Source of the DNA: Fistulifera solaris
Lineage: Eukaryota > Bacillariophyta > Bacillariophyceae > Naviculales > Stauroneidaceae
NCBI GenBank assembly: GCA_030295235.1
Contig: AP026127.1
Location: forward strand, 1,471,813 to 1,535,812
Length of the DNA stretch: 64,000 nt
Reading direction: 5' to 3'
Part shown: piece by piece, positions 38,478-54,374 of the stretch
Layout of the letters: each line of letters opens with the position of its first letter
Position numbering within the stretch: position 1 is the stretch's first letter
The notes under the pieces: generated by a model
The model's database searches: none
Told to the model about the DNA's origin: nothing
Seen by the model: only the letters and a program-made list of their open reading frames with translations
Made by a program: the position numbers and the translations under genes

Positions 38478-40619
38478 TTATGGCATATCGTCACGGTCAG
38501 GAACTTCGGATCCGCCGGCAATATCTTCCATGTGGATGGCGTGATACATTTCGCTACTCACATTTACGTACTGCGACATGTAGGCCAGCTGACCTTTAAT
38601 CGCGTCGTTCAATGTATCCACGCCAATCTTTTCAATTACTACAATGCAAGGCAAGTTATTGGTCGTACGAACGACGTTGCAGCGTAGTAGCCGATAGCGA
38701 CCACTCAACTTACGAACAATTCGCGTCAATTGCAGCCCTCGCAAAACCAACATTACAATACGTCCTTTGTCTTTCAGCACATACCAAGCTGTTCGGAGGA
38801 AAATCTCGTACAAGGATTGCAAGTCGTTTACATTCTTTGACCCTGTCATGACACCCCATGGCAAGTTAGACACAATAGAGTCCACAGATTCATCTTGTAA
38901 GTGTTTGCGTAACGCACGAGCATCCGTGCAATGGATTTCACAAGATCCTGGGGGACAATTTTCAGCCCGAGCGTTCTCTCGCGCTCCACGGGCGCTTTTA
39001 CCCGATACATCCATGCCAATACACTTGACTTGCTTCCCCGTCATCTCCATTGCTTCCAACAAAATAGTTCCGCCTCCACAAAATGGATCCACCACAAGAT
39101 GCCCGGGCTGAACATTGGCACAGCGCAACATGACGTACGCTAAATTGCATTTGATAGTGACACCATTTCGAAATCGAGTAAAGTGGCGGCGAGCCATTTC
39201 TTCCACATTCAGTTGTGTTCCTACCATGACAACGTTCCCCACGACATCGACACGAATCTGAACGTCATAGTCTTCCATCTGAGGATGACACGTGTCCTTG
39301 TAATATTCCGATAAAGCACCACCGATTTCAAATTCGACTTGCGGTGCTCGAAATGCATGAGGTCCACCAATTCGGTCGCATGTAACACGAAAACTGCGTT
39401 TGTTAGGACCCTGTAGATTTGGAATTCGAACGTCGCCTTTGACAAGCCGGTGCTTGTAGAACTGATACAATTGTTCACCATCGATGGTAGCAACGTCTTC
39501 CTGGATTTCATGCAAGTCAAAATGATCGTGGTATTGCATCAAATGATGTGCCGATCGCAGCTGCAGCAATTTAGAGACAATTGCGGTTGATGCCGACGAG
39601 TCCGATTCACACAAGTCAGATACTTCGTCGTTTCCAGGTCGCTCAGTGCGACAAATCGCAACGTAGCCCGCAGCATCCCATGGTCGAGGAATAGCCACCC
39701 AACGATCACGCAATTCACTTTCGGAAGATATACACTCCCAGATCTCCGAGACAGTATATTGTTCCGCCCCAATGTTAGTCCGCACGGTGTAGACCACACG
39801 ATTCAGAGAGGATTCCTCCTCGAATTGCGATGTAGTCGATAATGCATCCCCAAACACAACCAAGCAACCTCCGTTACCGTCCTGATCATCATCTGGCTGA
39901 TAAACACTAGGAAGATTCCCTACCGGCAGATCTGTCATGCGTTGCAACCACTTGTCACGGCGTTCATGCTCTTGTTCACCCAGGGTATCTTGACCGTATT
40001 GTTTACAGCGAAAGGTGAGATTGATGCGTCCTTCGGTAACGTTCGCTTGTCTGGGAATACTGTGCACGTACTGCTCTTGACAAATGGGTTCCATAATCAC
40101 TAAAGAACCGTGTTGCAATTCGAGTGTGTGCTTCTCGAGCCCCTGCTTCGCGCGAATGCCAAACGACCGTGTCGCACCCAAACTGATACTCGCAATCGGC
40201 GTCAAACGACCGATTTCTTCTCGATCGCAGTGCCAGCCGATTCGCTGCTGTCCGTCTTGATAGAAATTCAATAAACATACGTTGAAGTGGACATTTGCGT
40301 TATTCTTTTCTTTGTACCAAGTTTCTGCTTTATGTGAGATGGCTTTAATCGTCTCGGTAAAAGGTTTGCTTTGCTGTTGCTGCTGATGATGAGCTTGTGG
40401 ATTGTCGCGATACTTATATGCGTTGCTGTTCGTACTATCGCTTGCTAAATCATTCTCCGGCTCTTCGTAAAGAGCGACCCAGCGATTGATTTTCGCGGTT
40501 TTCTCCCACGGCGTGTCGTTCAGTAATTGCTGATAAAAAAGATCAGCTTCTTCGAAAGGCAAGAAATTCGCATCGTGATAGACACAAGGAGTTTCTAAAG
40601 GCACTTTGTATTCGTCCAT
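38478..40619 (-). CDS. AlkB-type dioxygenase fused to THUMP-class tRNA methyltransferase
   Basis: An intact 713-residue ORF with two enzymes. Residues about 1-205 are an AlkB-family 2-oxoglutarate/Fe(II) dioxygenase: the iron ligands are H130 and D132 in GWHCDREE and H186 in YVHSIPRQ; R198 and R204 in GRINLTFR bind 2-oxoglutarate. It is closest in style to ALKBH2/3. Residues about 240-480 are a THUMP-like region and the start of the Rossmann domain. The methyltransferase core has motif I VVDPFCGGGTILLEA (from residue 509), GMDVSGKSARGARENAR, and the catalytic NLPWG near 585 (N-[LP]-P-[FWY] type), as in THUMPD2/3 and Trm14, which make N2-methylguanosine. The pairing suggests a demethylase and methylase acting on the same RNA, or direct repair of the alkylated RNA. 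It overlaps no other gene; the stop is 88 bases from the facing gene. Confidence 0.88.
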   Translation of the reverse strand: MDEYKVPLETPCVYHDANFLPFEEADLFYQQLLNDTPWEKTAKINRWVALYEEPENDLASDSTNSNAYKYRDNPQAHHQQQQQSKPFTETIKAISHKAETWYKEKNNANVHFNVCLLNFYQDGQQRIGWHCDREEIGRLTPIASISLGATRSFGIRAKQGLEKHTLELQHGSLVIMEPICQEQYVHSIPRQANVTEGRINLTFRCKQYGQDTLGEQEHERRDKWLQRMTDLPVGNLPSVYQPDDDQDGNGGCLVVFGDALSTTSQFEEESSLNRVVYTVRTNIGAEQYTVSEIWECISSESELRDRWVAIPRPWDAAGYVAICRTERPGNDEVSDLCESDSSASTAIVSKLLQLRSAHHLMQYHDHFDLHEIQEDVATIDGEQLYQFYKHRLVKGDVRIPNLQGPNKRSFRVTCDRIGGPHAFRAPQVEFEIGGALSEYYKDTCHPQMEDYDVQIRVDVVGNVVMVGTQLNVEEMARRHFTRFRNGVTIKCNLAYVMLRCANVQPGHLVVDPFCGGGTILLEAMEMTGKQVKCIGMDVSGKSARGARENARAENCPPGSCEIHCTDARALRKHLQDESVDSIVSNLPWGVMTGSKNVNDLQSLYEIFLRTAWYVLKDKGRIVMLVLRGLQLTRIVRKLSGRYRLLRCNVVRTTNNLPCIVVIEKIGVDTLNDAIKGQLAYMSQYVNVSSEMYHAIHMEDIAGGSEVPDRDDMP

Positions 40620-40730: not shown

Positions 40731-41540
40731 TTCCAGAATTTCTGCTCTGGAAGCGATGTCTTTCATCATTCATCATTCAGAAATTCTGGAAAGGTGATTG
40801 CGATCACACAGCAAGTCTGGCCGATCCTGAATTTCTGGAATCGATGTCTGCGACCATACAGATGCAACCACACAGATGCAACCATACAGATTTTCTGTGA
40901 TGTTCCAGAAATTCTGGAATTGGTCTTTGCGATCACACAAATTTTCTGTGGGTGTTCCAGAAATTCTGGAATTAGTGTTCGAGTCCAGATATTCTGGATC
41001 TTTGTTTGCGATTATACAGAAATTTTTGCGGCAGTTCCAGAAATTCTGGAATCGGTGATTGCGATCGCGCAGTTCGTGGTTGATCCCGAATTTTTTGAAA
41101 TCGGTATATGCGATCATACAGTCATTTTGTGGCAGTTCCAGAATCTCTGGAGACACTGAGGTCGCTCCAAAAATTCGGGAATAAGTGTTTGCGATCATAC
41201 ACTTTTCTGTGGTTGTTCCAGAAATTCTGGAATGAATCGGTGTTTGCGATCATACAGCTTTCGGTGGTTGTTACAGAAATTCTGGAATCCGTCTTTGCGA
41301 TAAAACACATTTTCTGTGCCGGTTCAAGAAATTCTTCCTGAAATTCTGGTGAAGGTTTTTTCATCATACAGAAATTCTGAGTATTTCCAGAAATTCTGGA
41401 AAAGGTGATTGTTTCAACTTACAAAATTCTGTGGACTTTCCAGAATTTCTGGAAACGTTAACTATATGATCATACAGAAATTCTGTGGATGTTCCAGAAT
41501 TTCTGGAGACAATGCAATTCCCCATACAGAAATGCTGTGT
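40731..41540. repeat. Array of ~15 palindromes, TTCCAGAAATTCTGGAA
   Basis: About 800 bases of degenerate tandem units of 50-70 bases. Each has the 17-base palindrome TTCCAGAAATTCTGGAA or a near copy (for example at 40903, 40955, 41035, 41216, 41271, 41385, 41438 and 41492). The spacer reads like TCGGTGTTTGCGATCATACA and is followed by a second, weaker palindrome, ACAGAAATTCTGT. Small ORFs through the array on both strands are by-products. It begins 110 bases upstream of the AlkB fusion gene's start and ends 150 bases from the next gene's stop. Confidence 0.9.
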
Positions 41541-43348: not shown

Positions 43349-46011
43349 ATGTCCATGTATGTACTGAAACGCAACGGCAAACGTGAATCTGTTCACTTTG
43401 ATAAGATTACGAGCCGCGTCAGTAAGCTTTGTTACGGCTTGGATGCAAAGGTAAGTTGTCTACGACGAAAGGAAACCCATTTGTAGTGTTTCATCTTCTT
43501 AACGCACTCGCTTCGTCTCTCTTTGTACTATTCATAGCACGTCGATCCGGTCGTCATTTCGCAAAAGGTCATTCAAGGAGTTTATCCGGGCGTTACGACT
43601 TGTGAATTGGATGAGTAAGTGCAGCAAACAGAAACTATAGTAAATATTTGCTTCTTCCTTCCTTCACTCACTCACACAATCCTTCTTTTCCTTCATAACA
43701 GACTCGCTGCGCAAACGGCGGCCGCCATGGCGACGCAACATCCGGATTACTCGATCCTCGCCGCTCGCATTTCCGTATCCAATCTTCACAAGATGACGGT
43801 CGCACGTTTCTCGGAACTCTGTCAACTCTTTCATGATTACAAGCATCCGCAAACGGGAGAACCCGCTCCTCTCATCTCGCAAGAAGTCTACGATATCAGT
43901 CAAAAGTACGCGGGAGAACTGGACGGAGCTATCGTTCATGCGCGTGACTTTGAGTACGATTACTTTGGCTTCAAAACACTCGAAAAGAGTTACCTTCTCA
44001 AGATGCACGGACAGATTGCTGAACGTCCCCAGTTGCTATTGATGCGTGTTGCTGTTGGAATTCACGGAGATGACATCCCCAAAGTCATTGAGACCTACAA
44101 CGACCTTTCGAATCGGTACTTTACGCACGCTACGCCCACGCTCTTCAATGCCGGAACCAACATGCCGCAAATGTCGTCGTGCTTCTTGCTCACCATGAAG
44201 CAGGACTCTATTGAAGGTATCTACGATACGCTTAAGAACTGCGCCATCATCTCCAAGTATGCTGGAGGTATCGGTCTCGCCATTCACAACATTCGAGCCA
44301 GCAAATCCTACATTCGCGGAACCAACGGAACGTCGAACGGTATTGTGCCCATGCTTCGCGTTTTCAACAACACGGCGCGTTACGTGGATCAGGGTGGTGG
44401 CAAGCGCAAAGGCAGTATTGCCTGCTATTTGGAGCCGTGGCATGCCGATGTCTTTGAGTTCCTGGATTTGCGCAAAAATCACGGCAATGAAAGCGATCGT
44501 GCGCGTGATCTATTTTACGCGCTTTGGGTGCCCGATTTGTTCATGAAGCGAGTCAAGGAAAACTCCACTTGGAGTTTGTTCTGCCCCAATGAGGCGCCCG
44601 GACTTGCCGATTGCTACGGAGCCGAATTCGAGGCGTTGTACGAAAAGTATGAACAGGAAGGACGCGCTCGTCAGACTATAAAGGCACAGACGTTGTGGTT
44701 CGCCATTTTGGACTCGCAAGTGGAAACTGGAACGCCTTACATTCTCTACAAGGACGCCTGCAATGAAAAGTCGAACCAGAAAAACTTGGGCACCATTCGT
44801 TGCTCCAACTTGTGCACGGAAATCGTCGAGTACACCGCACCGGATGAAACCGCCGTCTGCAACTTGGCCAGTATTTCCTTGTCGAAGCTTGTCACGCCCA
44901 CCACCGATGCGGAAGAAGGTAGCTTTGACTTTGATCGTTTGAACGAAATCTCGCAAGTGGTGACCCGTAACTTGAACAAGATCATCGATCGCAATTATTA
45001 CCCAATTGAAGAGGCTCGCAAGTAAGTTCTTTTCTGCTGTGTCTTGTTCAATGAATGGACGTCGAAAAGTCACCTGACCGGCTGCGCTCTCTTTCCAACA
45101 GCTCCAATATGCGCCACCGTCCCATTGGTATCGGAGTACAGGGTCTGGCCGATGCTTTCCAAATGTTACGTCTTCCTTTTGACTCGCCCCAGGCTCGTCA
45201 GCTCAACAAGGACATTTTCGAAACCATTTACTACGGTGCTTGCTGCGCCAGTTGCGAATTGGCCGAGATCGATGGTCCGTACTCGACGTATGAGGGTTCT
45301 CCCGCTAGTCAGGGACAGTTGCAGTTTGATCTTTGGGGTGTTACTCCATCGGATCGATGGGATTGGGCGGCATTGAAAGAACGTATCGCTCAACATGGTC
45401 TCCGAAACTCGTTGTTGCTAGCTCCTATGCCCACGGCGTCTACCGCACAGATTCTTGGTAACAACGAGAGCACTGAACCGTTCACCAGCAACATGTACAA
45501 CCGTCGCGTTTTAGCCGGAGAGTTTACGGTCGTCAACAAACACTTGCTTCGAGAGTTAACTGCCCGTGGTTTGTGGAATGAAGATGTTCGCAACCGTATC
45601 ATTGCCGACAACGGATCTATTCAAAACGTCAAATCTATCCCCGAGTCCATTCGGGAAGTGTACAAGACAGTGTGGGAGATTCCTCAGCGTTCCATTTTGG
45701 ACATGGCGGCCGAACGCGCTCCTTACATTTGCCAGAGCCAGTCTTTGAATGTGCACTTGGCCGAACCCGACTCGAAGAAGTTGACCAGTATGCACTTTTA
45801 CGCATGGAAGAAAGGATTGAAGACCGGAATGTACTATTTGCGCACTCGTCCCAAGGCAGACGCTATCAAGTTCACGGTCGATCAAGAACTTATTAATGCG
45901 GACAAGCAAAAGAAAGCGCAGGCCGGTGCAAAACCAGTCAATGGATTCCAAGGGGCAGCAGGCTTGACCACCGTTAGCGACGAAGAGGAGTGCTTGAACT
46001 GCGGTGCCTAA
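43349..46011 (+). CDS. Ribonucleoside-diphosphate reductase large subunit (class Ia)
   Basis: Four exons: 43349-43450, 43538-43614, 43702-45021 and 45102-46011, with three short GTAAGT introns of 80-87 bases ending CATAG, ACAG and CAACAG. The joined protein is 802 residues, the family's usual size. It reduces NDPs to dNDPs. Exon 1-2 hold the ATP-cone ([17 protein letters not shown]). The catalytic set is visible: MSSCFLL (first Cys), NLCTEI (N-x-C-x-E), [10 protein letters not shown] (second Cys), the Tyr pair in [10 protein letters not shown] that relays the radical, and the C-terminal redox pair CLNC near the end. Splicing is confirmed by ELDE-LAAQ and [16 protein letters not shown]. The small subunit is not in this window. 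Confidence 0.96.
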
Positions 46012-47628: not shown

Positions 47629-48033
47629 AACGAAGAGAGATGTTAGCAAATAGATGTAATGCACCCACGATTATTGTAGTGTTGCAAACAAGATGAGCAT
47701 GAACGTTTGTTGCATTCACAATTTTTTGTTTTCGTTATCGATTTCTTTTTGGTGGGAGATCGCAAAAATAGACGGAGTATCAGTTGATGTGTTGTCTCGT
47801 GGCGCTATCTGGTACTCGTCTTGGTGTCGCTTCGGTTTCGCTCCAGTAGATCTATCGTCCGTCGTCCGTCTGATCTCCTATCACCGCGATCCGCGATCCA
47901 CGACGATCACGCGATCATCGACGATGATTACAGGTACTGGTATTCGATTCTTTCATTCCGCTGCAGCTGTGCAGCGTCTCCTTTGTATTCATTCATTGTC
48001 TTGAATAACACCTTACGATCAACTTCATGCATC
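47629..48033. promoter_or_regulatory. Divergent promoter region
   Basis: About 400 bases between the K+ channel and the helicase gene. Contains a GATCGCGATC-like patch at 47885-47915 (GCGATCCGCGATCC, CACGCGATCATCGACG). ORF sequence extends through it in the helicase frame but without support. Confidence 0.4.
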
Positions 48034-51000
48034 ATGGAAGGCTTTCTTGCTTCGTTTTCTCCTCCATCTCAGAAGGATGAGACGTATGCTGACGTATCGG
48101 CTGATGTAACGGCCGCTTTGCAAGCGCTGTCTCATGCTCTCGAAGCAGCACTAACAATCGCATCCGTCTCGTCCTCTTCACCGTCTTTTCCTACACAACG
48201 TGACGCTATTACAGCAGATTGGCTGCTTCAAAAATGTACTTTACAAGATTCCTTTTTAACTCCGCAGCAACTTGCAATGTCAATTTGGGAAACAGCGCAT
48301 TTAGAGAATGAGATGCAACAGCAGGAGGCACTCTTTCAATTGTTGGGCGAGCAAAATTTCGATCTTCTGCTGGAACTGACACCACAGTTACCACAAATCG
48401 CTAAAATAGCGCGACATTCGATAGAAGCAGCCGTCAATTCCGCTGCTCCTACTACTCCTTCCGATCCAGAGGTCTTTGTTGACGTAGAAGAAGAGAGACG
48501 TATCTATTTACGAGAACAAGCGGCGCAAGCCGCACGAACGGCATCACTGGCAAAGGCGGAACTGGAGGCACTTATGACTGTCACTTCAGGAGCTACACAT
48601 GCAGCAATATCCAAGAAACAGGAAAAACAAGCGAGGAAGTTCGCGGAAAAGGCACAAAAGCAAGCAGCTGCGGCTTTACAACAAGCGAAAGATGCGGGGG
48701 CGATTTTGGACGAAGACGATTGGCTCGCTGTCTCGAGTACTGGATGGGGAGAGGGCGGTTTGGTTAACCAGGATGCAGCTTCTCTCATAGCATTTCAGCA
48801 GTCACTACTTCCCGAAGGGACCAAAGAATACTACGAAATGAAAGGTTTGCCGGCCGATGCTGAATACTTCGAAGACGACAATATGAAACGTGTCTTGATT
48901 CCAGCTATTCCTAGAGACACGGCGAAACTTCGTTCGCGGCTCAAAATTGTGGATGTAATAACGGATCCTCGAGAAGCGGCGCCGTTTTATGGAACGACGT
49001 CGTTAAATCCAATGCAGTCGACCGTCTTTGAACGCGCGTTTCACAGTCGTGACAATCTGCTCATATGTGCTCCAACAGGAGCTGGAAAGACAAATGTCGC
49101 ACTTTTGACCGTAGTGGCGCATTTTAGAGACGTTGGTTTGCTGAATGCTCCTGGGCGCATGGACACGGGACACAAAGTCGTTTACATTGCTCCAATGAAA
49201 GCTCTGGCGCAAGAAGTCGTCGAAAAGTTCTCTTCTAAGCTGAAACCGTTCATTGTACGTGAATTGACGGGTGATATGCAGTTAACCAGAGCAGAAGCAG
49301 ACTCGGCACAGGTCATTGTGACAACTCCGGAAAAATGGGATGTTGTGACACGAAAGAGTGGAACGGATGAGTCATCGTTAGGGAATCAGTGCGGCCTCTT
49401 GATCATCGACGAAGTCCATTTGTTAGCCGACGAACGTGGGGCTGTGGTTGAATCGGTCGTGGCGCGTTTACACCGTTTAGTAGAAAGTCGACAAAAACAA
49501 GTCAGAATTGTCGCGTTGTCAGCGACGCTACCAAATTATGGGGACGTGGCCGACTTTCTACAAGTTCCTTCCAGTGGAGTATTCTTCTTTGGACCCGAAC
49601 ATCGCCCTGTTCCATTACAGCAGCAGTTTATCGGTGTCGGTACGAAGAAGATGCCGCGAGATGTCCGCGAGCAGAAAATGAATGAATTATGCTTCGACGC
49701 TGTTCTCGATTCTCTGAAGCGCGGGTATCAAGTCATGGTGTTTGTGCATTCTCGTAAAGGGACTGGAGATACAGCCCGTGCCTTGGCAGAGCAAGCCAGC
49801 AGTGAAGGGCTACTGGATAAATATTTTGTGAACGAAGAGAAGGCCAAGCATTATGCGGCAAGAGTTCAAAAATCTCGCAACAGACAAGTGACACAGTTTT
49901 TTGAACAGGGCTTAGGAATTCATCACGCCGGTATGCTTCGAGGTGATCGCAAACTGACGGAACAAATGTTCTTCGACGGCGCAATTCAGGTTTTGTGTTG
50001 CACTGCAACTTTGGCGTGGGGTGTTAACTTGCCTGCGCATACTGTTGTAATCAAGGGAACGGATGTTTACAATCCGGAAAAAGGTGGAAATGTTGATCTG
50101 AGTATCTTAGACGTCCAGCAGATCTTTGGTCGCGCCGGTCGTCCGCAATTCGATAGTTCTGGTGAAGCTATTCTGATCACTTCTCTCGACGCCTTTCCTC
50201 GTTATATGGATAAACTAGTACGGCCCATTCCGATTGAATCGAATTTCAGCAAGCAGCTCGCTGATCATCTGAACGCAGAGATCGCTGGAAGGACAGTCAC
50301 AACGATTACGGAAGCAGCTACATGGCTCACCTACACGTATATGTACGTACGAATGGGAAAAAATCCTCTACAATACGGAATGCGGCCTGACGATGGCAGC
50401 GATCCGCTTGCCATTCGAGAACATTGCCTTTCCCTTGTTACAGAGGCCGCCAAGCTTCTCGAAGCCAATAAAATGATCTCCTTTCATGCTATGAGCGGCA
50501 ATCTTTCAGTGAAAGATAAAGGCCATGTTGCTGCGCACTATTACATTCAGGCTGAAAGCATCGAGGTTTTTAACGAGCGGTTCTCGCGATCGATGGTTCC
50601 TACTGACAGTGATTTATGCCGCACCATTTGCCTCGCGAATGAATTTAACAATTTAAAGTTACGCCCGGAAGAGGTTGAAGAGTTACAAGCGGTCGCTCAG
50701 AAAATACCATTGAAGATAATTGCACCTGGAGCGGACGAAATAGGGAGGAGTTTGATTGTTGATGCAGCGGATAAGGCTTTTGTGCTGCTACAAGCTTTCA
50801 TCACGCGGGAAAGAATCAAGTCATTTACGCTCATCTCAGACATGAATTACATCGAATCCAACGCAGCTCGGATCGCTAGAGCTTTGTTTGAAATGTCGAA
50901 GCGTGAAAGCCGGGCAACGACGACAGTAAAGATGCTGCGAATTGCGAAGAGCATTGAAAAACAACTCTGGTGGTTCCAAACTCCTCTGCGCGTGTTCGAA

Positions 51001-54000
51001 GACGAAATTCAGGCTCATGTATTCTCGGCGTTGGAGAATTACATCAGCAACCGTTCTTATGATGCCTTCGAGGCGACCCTTTCCTTGATGGAGCTGCAGG
51101 CGAGCGAAGTTGGACAGATTTGCAAATCGCGGAATATTGGAGGAAAAGTTCAGCGATTGATATCAATGCTTCCTCGGCTTGAATTGACGTGCAACATTCA
51201 TCCGGTCACGAGAGCGGTTTTGCGTATGCACGTCACGATAGAAGCTGATTTTAATTGGTCTAAACGATGGCATGGTGCAACGGAGTCGTTTTGGATCATG
51301 GTTGAAGATCCTGATGCGGACCGCACGTACCATGCTGAGCTAATCACTTTGCAGTTTCGCACATACCAGGATCCGATACAGCTTGAAATTTGGATTCCCG
51401 CATTCGACAAACTTCCTGACCAATACACTGTACGAGCTATATCGGATTCATGGGTCGGGGTTGAGCAGATTTTACCAGTCCTTTTGCATGGTAAGCCGAA
51501 AAGATTATATGGAAATGGCACCTGGTACCCGAAACAGATACTTACTATTTCCCCCAGACGTGCAATTTCCGGCATCTCAAGATTTAAAAACAGACGTACT
51601 TGACCTTACCCCTCTTCCGATTTCCGCTCTCCAAAATAATCGATACGAGAGACTTTATACCAAATTTGAAACATTCAACCCGGTAAGTCAGCATTGCTTG
51701 GTCTTCCTTATGCTTCCTCTTTTCTCACGTTGCTCGTTCAGATCCAAACACAGCTATTTCATGTGCTGTACCACACCGACTTTCCAGTCTTTTTAGGCGC
51801 CCCCACAGGGTCCGGGAAGACGATCATAGCAGAGCTAGCGTTTTTGCGCATGAAAAACGTCCACGCGGACGGAATTTGCGTCTATATAGCGCCTTTGAAA
51901 GCTTTAGCCCGAGAGCGCCTCAAAGAATGGCAAAAACGATTAGTGGACTGGACAGTGCTAGAACTTTCGGGCGATACGCACCATGATCAATCAGCTTTGC
52001 AGAGAGCCGATATATTGGTGTGCACTCCCGAAAAATGGGACCTTGTGAGTCGTTCGTGGGTATCGAAAAGTTTCGTTCAACGTGTGCGTCTACTTGTGTT
52101 GGATGAAGTTCATTTACTCGGGGAAGAACGCGGAGCTGTTTTGGAGGCGATTGTAAGCAGGACACGATTCATCTCGCGACATCTTTTGGACAAAGGCGGT
52201 GCAGACCAATTCACTGACAACAAAGAGCCAACGCGCATCATTGGACTTAGCACAGCGATTGCGAATCCAACAGATCTAGCCGACTGGATGGGGATTGATA
52301 CGACGAGCTTCGGGTCACAGAAGCTGAGAGGATTGTACAATTTTCGACCAAGCGTGCGTCCCGTCCCTGTCACTGTCTGGGTGCAAGGGTACGCCGGTAG
52401 GCATTATTGTCCCCGAATGGCAACCATGAACAAACCTTGCTACGCGGCAATCAAAGAACATTCTTCTGCGAAACCAGTTCTAATTTTTGTAGCCTCGCGA
52501 CGTCAGACGCGCCTTACTGCACTTGATCTGATAAGTTATGCCGCCGCCGATGAGCTTCCTCGAAGGTTCCTTCATACGGAGGACCGTTACATGGAAGATG
52601 TAGCCTCGCAACTCTCCGACGCTTCGCTCCGCCATACAATGCAGTTTGGAGTCGGCCTCCACCATGCCGGATTGTCAACTTCGGATCGCGACGTAGTTGA
52701 GCGCATGTTTTTGTCGGGTGACATTCAGATTTTGGTGGCAACAGCAACGCTTGCTTGGGGAGTTAATTTACCTGCACATCTCGTCATCGTGAAGGGCACC
52801 GAGTATTTCGACGGGAAGAAGCATGGGTATGTCGACTATCCACTTACAGACGTACTGCAGATGATTGGACGAGCTGGACGTCCTGGATTTGATACGGAAG
52901 CAAAAGCGGTCGTCATGGTGCAAGAGGAGAAAAAGACGTTTTATTCGAAAGTAAGTGCTGAATGCCTTTTTGGTGCTTTGACCTTTTCGCTAATGTGCGC
53001 CGTTCGCAGTTCCTCTATTCTCCATTTCCCGTTGAATCATGCTTGCGCGAACGTTTACCGGAAGTATTGAATGCTGAAATTGCTGGCGATACGATTCAGT
53101 CGCTAAACGAAGCTTTTGGATACATGTCGTGGACTTTTTTCGGCCGACGAATGAAGGTGAATCCATCTTACTATGGTGTTAGTGTTCGGTCTTCAGAATC
53201 TGCAGACGAAGATGTTCTAGACGCTATTGAAAACGTCGTTGAATCCGCCTTATTGTTACTTCGCACGAATGGCTGTCTGTTACAGGACGACAAGGAAAAT
53301 TTGTCATCAACATCGTTGGGCAAATGCGCCTGCAACTATTACCTGAAACACGAAACGCCTCGGCAGATGCAAATTGGTATTCGCGAGTCCATTAAATGGA
53401 CGAACGAAAATATCAAAAGCAATTTATCTTTTTATCATGGTGTGATTCCTCTCCTGCGGACCGAAAGAATGGAGGAAGTATCCTCCGCCTGGATTTTGTA
53501 TTCGCTGTGTGCCACCCATGAATTCGATGAGCTTCCTGTACGTCACAACGAGGAATTTTTAAATAAGGAGCTAAGTGAAAGCTTGCCTTGGGGTCCTGAC
53601 ACAGCTTCTCTTTTAAGCCCTGGGGCGTACATTCATCACAACGAAGAAGTGTTCCTAGATCCGCACACAAAAGCCTTCTTGTTGATCCAAGCCTTCTTGG
53701 CGAAGTCAAAGCTTCCCATCAGCGACTATGTCAACGATACCAAAACTGTTTTTGATAACCTCCCTCGCCTACTTGCCGCCATGGAGTATCTAGCTCTCAA
53801 CGAAGATGTTGGCATCCCCGGATCTTTTGAAGTAGTGACTCACTTCACAAAGACACGACAATTAATAAATGCGGTGTGCATGCCGAATCAGAGTCCGATG
53901 TCGCAGCTGGGAAATGGGGCTGAAAATTTGTCGATGTCCTTGTTCGAGCTAAGGTGCATGAAGCGCGAAGAGGCGCAATCGCTTTTTCCGAAACAAAAGA

Positions 54001-54374
54001 CTGATCGATTGTTGAGTGCACTGTATGCTTTGCCGCTTGTAACCGCATCCAATATCTCCATTTCTCCCACTACGGACAAAGCGACCGGAACTACAACGGG
54101 AAACCTGTGCCTGGATTTGGACTTGAACGTTTCGCCGACAAAAAGAGGCACCGAACCATGGGGTGTGAAGTTGTTAGTTGGAAGTTTCGAAAACCACATT
54201 TTGCTTGGTCATGCATCCTTGTCACTCGGTTCCGCACAATCGCGTCGCGTAAATATTGAATTCGACTGGAGAGAGGCAAAGGCTCACGGAGGTCCGGATG
54301 CTGCGATTGTAATTCGCTGCTTGTTAGATCAAACACGTGGCCTAGATTGGGAGCAAATGATAAAGTTGCAATAA
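48034..54374 (+). CDS. Ski2-like double-cassette helicase, ASCC3/Slh1 type
   Basis: Three exons (48034-51682, 51742-52950, 53010-54374) with two 59-base introns; about 2,073 residues. Start at the ATG at 48034 (MEGFLASFSPPSQ). Two helicase cassettes each end in a Sec63 module. Cassette 1: APTGAGKTNVALL, TTPEKWDVVTRK, LIIDEVHLLADERG, LSATLPNY, QIFGRAGRPQFD. Cassette 2: GAPTGSGKTIIAELA, TPEKWDLVSRSW, LLVLDEVHLLGEERG, MIGRAGRPGFD. Both motif sets look active, and WDxVSRSW in the second matches ASCC3/Slh1 rather than Brr2, whose second cassette is degenerate. The frame breaks at the C run near 51552: dropping one C joins KQILTIS to PDVQFPASQDLK. In yeast and humans this helicase clears collided ribosomes and assists alkylation repair with ALKBH3. 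Family firm. Confidence 0.92.

Follow-up and report, generated by a model that had tools for sequence, protein, structure and literature searches.

A fused AlkB dioxygenase and Trm14/TrmN-type methyltransferase gene in the two subgenomes of Fistulifera solaris

Introduction

To our knowledge, ALKBH8 is the only established protein in which an AlkB oxygenase and a tRNA methyltransferase are joined in one chain. A single gene in a 64,000-nucleotide stretch of Fistulifera solaris DNA, referred to below as the window, appeared to combine an AlkB dioxygenase with a different, THUMP-containing methyltransferase. This raises three questions: is the fusion real, to which families do its two halves belong, and what could such a protein do? 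We addressed them by comparing the gene, termed P0001, with profile models, solved structures, its homoeolog and the remaining AlkB and THUMP enzymes of the genome.

Results

Domain architecture of P0001

P0001 occupies positions 38478–40619 of the minus strand, to which all gene coordinates below refer. It starts with ATG and continues uninterrupted for 713 codons to its stop; when the window was resampled 1000 times with a first-order Markov model, the longest chance frame had 256 codons. In Pfam, the N-terminal half matches PF13532 (2OG-FeII_Oxy_2) over residues 17–204, covering profile positions 6–194 of 194 (E = 1.1e-33; 117.6 bits vs. a cut-off of 31.2), and the whole AlkB domain extends over residues 12–205 (40005–40586). 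It is followed by a linker (residues 206–274; 39798–40004), an N-terminal ferredoxin-like plus THUMP region (275–477; 39189–39797) and a class I SAM-dependent methyltransferase domain (478–665; 38625–39188), in which UPF0020 matches residues 478–637 (E = 5.5e-28). The THUMP model barely passes its cut-off (residues 405–467; 20.9 vs. 20.6 bits), but the assignment is backed by a co-linear alignment with TrmN-type proteins and by the predicted fold. The C-terminal tail (666–713; 38481–38624) was modelled mostly with low confidence.

Residue checks and alignments located the first two iron ligands in H130-C-D132 (40224–40232), the third in H186 (40062–40064) and the 2-oxoglutarate-binding motif RINLTFR from R198 to R204 (40008–40028). 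The protein therefore carries the HxD...H ligands and the RxNxTxR motif of AlkB-like 2OG-Fe(II) dioxygenases, and its AlkB chemistry should be intact. In the C-terminal half, the residue check placed the SAM-binding motif I DPFCGGGT at 511–518 (39066–39089) and the catalytic motif IV NLPWG at 585–589 (38853–38867). The initial annotation had described one intact 713-residue frame containing both enzymes and had listed these ligands and motifs; the open reading frame, the Pfam matches and the position of each residue agree with it.

A homoeologous copy and selection on both halves

F. solaris has been described as allopolyploid, its chromosomes forming 42 homoeologous pairs (PMC5935921). In the genome that contains the window, a primer published for this species has one exact match and a published guide target has two, on contigs C38 and C39 (PMC13276009), in support of a heterokont origin. 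A search of its genome (51.7 Mb in 61 contigs) revealed the same fusion on contig C8 (L009, C8:1342000-1351000), with 91% identity over residues 89–713 and 81% over residues 1–105. The downstream neighbor of this locus can also be aligned, and the upstream neighbor is recognizable by eye. Both copies have the same junction, which speaks against the assembly error that had initially been considered at this point and, together with the conserved linker, led us to reject an assembly join or read-through artefact.

The C8 copy contains one frame break between its two matching segments, a single extra A within a run of A residues at about codon 96. As assembled, the product read from its start codon is 103 residues long and stops ahead of the iron ligands, and the first methionine of the downstream frame is equivalent to residue 176. 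The break is either a true lesion or an assembly error, for which a run of A residues is a usual place. With the copy broken as assembled, its AlkB half may not be needed.

A codon comparison of the homoeologs over 710 codons, skipping the first (cut), codon 82 (indel) and codon 96 (extra base), gave an overall dN/dS of 0.153. The lowest value was found for the methyltransferase (0.016), in which only two of 188 residues differ. For the AlkB domain, the ratio was 0.163 over residues 12–205 and 0.122 over the core (98–205), where 101 of 108 residues are identical, and the iron and 2-oxoglutarate ligands are complete in both copies. Residues 1–96 gave 0.311. The linker (206–272) showed the highest ratio of the measured stretches, 0.341, with 58 of its 67 residues kept. 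Both halves are under purifying selection. Taken together, an AlkB–Trm14/TrmN-type fusion is real, present in two subgenomes and constrained in both halves.

The AlkB half is ALKBH3-type with an altered recognition region

Among solved structures, the closest relative of the AlkB half is ALKBH3 (64.5 bits over residues 12–205), followed by ALKBH2 (45.5 bits), which bears out its earlier description as an ALKBH2/3-type domain. ALKBH3 is 34% identical to P0001 and has the complete core, HxD...H and RxNLTFR in common with it; two cyanobacterial AlkB proteins and one from Vibrio, with 36–39% identity, likewise share these features. Vibrio, cyanobacterial and phage proteins were the nearest AlkB relatives among the matches listed from plasmids and phages.

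The substrate-recognition region (residues 44–95; 40335–40490) differs from that of these relatives. ALKBH3-type relatives show PR, YxYSG and HxD[D/N]E, a pattern whose value as a family marker is our reading of the alignments, whereas P0001 has NR and YKYRD together with a Gln-rich insertion in this region, and HCDRE at the first two iron ligands. ALKBH3 itself contains PR and HSDDE but YTYSR instead of YxYSG, so that the difference in YxYSG alone is not telling. We compared 22 AlkB relatives, 17 from viral contigs and five from plasmid or phage loci, some of them near duplicates (e.g., L089/L090). At the position following HxD, 13 of them have D and nine have N, whereas the two F. solaris copies have R. 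This sample was not blind, since the 17 viral loci had been collected with a scan in which D, R or N was accepted at this position by the first pattern, and three YxYSG variants were entered into the motif search by hand. The SG of YxYSG is found in 21 of the 22 (SN in the remaining one) and replaced by RD in P0001; PR is present in all 16 aligned viral rows and all three plasmid rows. Overall, the HCDRE and YKYRD stretches of P0001 are unlike those of all 22 relatives. Judging from these residues, the substrate may have shifted, and that of ALKBH3 cannot be carried over to P0001.

The methyltransferase half resembles Trm14 and TrmN

The closest solved relative of the C-terminal half is Thermus TrmN (86 bits, residues 400–665). 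This half is co-linear with bacterial TrmN-type proteins, with the ferredoxin-like, THUMP and methyltransferase domains in Trm14/TrmN order. Its predicted fold also matches Trm14/TrmN best by Z score, in a model usable for this half only and built with TrmN-type rows, which biases it toward the TrmN fold. The best NCBIfam matches of P0001 are TIGR01177 and archaeal Trm14 models, all far below their curated cut-offs; the archaeal Trm14 equivalog model gave 87.8 bits against a cut-off of 280. The TrmN-type rows examined have neither an AlkB domain nor a C-terminal tail, whereas P0001 has both, and their motif IV reads NPPHG or NPPYG instead of NLPWG.

An RlmL or Trm11 type was rejected for this half, as the Z scores were lower than for Trm14/TrmN and separate genes match the RlmK/L model and TIGR01177. 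THUMPD3 and THUMPD2, the eukaryotic m2G enzymes, share the combination of THUMP and class I methyltransferase with P0001, and the passages on them mention no AlkB fusion. The VSLGKT loop is highly conserved in THUMPD2 (PMC13109388). It is absent from P0001, whose presumed equivalent, placed by eye, is VVRTTN, and we therefore rejected a THUMPD2 identity. In a tree of 12 rows without eukaryotic THUMPD3 references, the fusion joins the separate THUMP methyltransferase P0010 with a support of only 76/89, so that the methyltransferase subfamily is not settled by the tree. Of the THUMPD2/3/Trm14-like partner originally suggested, the Trm14 affinity is favored by the predicted fold, while the missing loop speaks against THUMPD2.

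P0001 is distinct from ALKBH8

Like P0001, ALKBH8 combines an AlkB dioxygenase and a SAM-dependent tRNA methyltransferase in one chain. ALKBH8, however, contains an RRM and a Trm9-type domain and acts on wobble uridine (PMC5372719), whereas the partner in P0001 is of Trm14/TrmN type with a THUMP domain; its C-terminal half is UPF0020/Trm14-type and no Trm9-type domain is present. Moreover, an ALKBH8-type protein is encoded elsewhere in the F. solaris genome, by P0007. An ALKBH8 identity was rejected on both grounds, as the initial annotation had already supposed, and with P0007 as the separate match to ALKBH8, P0001 is not a stray copy of it. By sequence, P0001 would represent a new variant of the plan known from ALKBH8.

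Other AlkB and THUMP enzymes of the genome

Genome-wide, we found 16 matches to PF13532, by eye mostly contig pairs, 12 to UPF0020 and seven to THUMP. The AlkB-domain matches include a cluster of two on C1 (2165496-2166765; L020 and L024) and one of three on C2 (2030797-2033419; L022, L026 and L028). Five paralogue ORFs were compared with solved structures, P0008 being left out, and none came near the 64.5 bits of P0001: P0009 reached about 30–33 bits with ALKBH2/3, L027 matched ALKBH6 best, L022 and P0007 matched ALKBH8 best, and L025 had no match among these structures. On the bacterial AlkB model TIGR00568, P0008 scored 120 bits vs. 36.6 for P0001.

Among the separate methyltransferase genes, P0003 and P0004 match the RlmK/L model, and P0005 and P0006 match TIGR01177; we take P0005 to be Trm11. 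P0010 shows only weak matches to related models and is presumably THUMPD3-like, judging from its motifs. The separate THUMP methyltransferase gene that looks THUMPD3-like by its motifs lies at L043 (C17) and at L047 (C18), where it is split over two frames. A six-frame genome search with PF03966 did not find a TRMT112 gene, which an intron could hide.

Genomic neighborhood

Just upstream of P0001, the window contains an array of the palindrome TTCCAGAAATTCTGGAA (40775–41508), with 19 matches on both strands at two or fewer mismatches (expected, 0.01). Genome-wide, the exact word was counted 476 + 545 times and its reversed control not at all; one site of this type lies in the 9-kb stretch surrounding the C8 copy. 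The TTCnnGAA units resemble heat-shock elements.

A two-cassette Ski2-type helicase with two DEAD and two Sec63 matches is distributed over three ORFs at 47821–54374. The first of these three ORFs, to which the comparison refers, scored 1064 bits with ASCC3 vs. 943 for the best Brr2 chain and hence appears nearer to ASCC3/Slh1 than to Brr2. The initial annotation had pointed to an ASCC3-type helicase in the window, the human version of which partners ALKBH3. The helicase is present, but this is a weak argument, being one of linkage over about 7 kb and across an intervening ribonucleotide reductase gene. The large subunit of this reductase is encoded at 43619–46011 by two consecutive ORFs, perhaps split by an intron, which jointly span the whole barrel domain.

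Occurrence of the fusion

The collections searched for the fusion were prokaryotic or viral and are uninformative on other diatoms. In viral contigs, the single-protein query gave no match, the methyltransferase alignment found 10 loci and the two AlkB alignments 0 and 17. One pattern-seeded scan of genome contigs yielded a single match among 291 candidate stretches, Thermus TrmN. Matches were obtained in 82 of 72,556 plasmid records and 19 of 50,697 phage records, in neither case with 80% cover. Among 111 genomes of the Thermus phylum, 19 gave matches at E 1e-8, and all 20 matches begin at residue 397 or later. When 53 loci were rechecked, 22 matched the AlkB half, 29 the methyltransferase half and none both; L098 is AlkB only (spanning residues 15–231), and L065 was unmatched despite its match in the Thermus phylum search. 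Among the open-access papers found on AlkB fusions and diatom AlkB proteins, no title or abstract opening reports the fusion; subscription papers and domain databases were beyond the scope of this search, and the fusion may well be annotated somewhere.

Discussion

Trm14 and TrmN are tRNA m2G6 methyltransferases, and enzymes like them are expected to take up tRNA by its 3′ end and to methylate an acceptor-stem guanosine at N2. If the C-terminal half of P0001 behaves in the same way, it would hold a tRNA by the 3′ end and position such a guanosine for methylation; by analogy to these families, tRNA is probably the substrate and m2G the product. Tethered by a linker of about 69 residues, the AlkB half could reach the same tRNA and would oxidize a methylated base in it. 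Known AlkB activities would fit: ALKBH3 removes m1A and m3C, whereas m2,2G is removed by ALKBH7 and an engineered E. coli AlkB (PMC11065319). With ALKBH8 there is already an enzyme whose two activities of this kind converge on a single tRNA nucleoside (PMC5372719). We give an even chance to the reading that P0001 is one bifunctional RNA-modification enzyme, and likewise to the AlkB half acting on the RNA bound by its partner. Points that weigh against this reading are the Trm14 scores below the curated cut-offs, the deviating AlkB recognition region, the C8 frame break, the lack of a PF03966 match in six frames and the weakly supported tree. It may demethylate rather than only hydroxylate, which the family relationship weakly suggests. 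In a more specific version, the protein would unite writer and eraser: the C-terminal half would add N2-methyl groups to a tRNA guanosine, the AlkB half with its altered recognition region would oxidize them off (m2,2G to m2G, or m2G to G), and the balance of SAM vs. 2-oxoglutarate, iron and oxygen would set the methylation state of this site. We regard this version as rather unlikely.

The most serious alternative, for which we see a limited but appreciable chance, is general alkylation repair of m1A and m3C in single-stranded DNA or RNA, in which case the shared chain would provide co-expression or RNA targeting without a shared substrate site. It is in line with ALKBH3 as the best solved match, which the five compared paralogues fall far short of. 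However, HCDRE and YKYRD differ from all 22 relatives, a THUMP enzyme as fusion partner is more suggestive of RNA, and the much higher TIGR00568 score of P0008 suggests that repair may be covered elsewhere.

We consider it improbable that the AlkB half is an ALKBH8-like hydroxylase that retains the group and forms a hypermodified nucleoside, because its sequence is of ALKBH3 and not ALKBH8 type and a hydroxymethyl on an amino group is expected to decay to formaldehyde. The altered recognition residues and an overall plan as in ALKBH8 (PMC5372719) would fit such an activity. Degeneration of the AlkB half, or a merely RNA-binding or regulatory role, is similarly doubtful. The C8 frame break upstream of the iron ligands, the changed recognition region with its Gln-rich insertion and the weaker constraint compared with the methyltransferase would agree with it, but all ligands are intact in both copies, the core is strongly conserved (dN/dS of 0.12) and the break sits at a typical site of assembly errors. 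That two separate genes or transcripts were read as one frame, or joined by the assembly, is very improbable given 713 codons without a stop, the same junction in the homoeolog and the retained linker.

The pairing of an ALKBH3-type with a Trm14-type domain in P0001 would be a second one beside ALKBH8 and would suggest that coupling of AlkB and methyltransferase domains evolved more than once. With a published RNP knock-out method, both homoeologs of an F. solaris gene can be edited (PMC13276009), which makes the question of P0001 function directly testable. Should the two halves share one tRNA as their substrate, the protein would offer a test of active reversal of tRNA base methylation.
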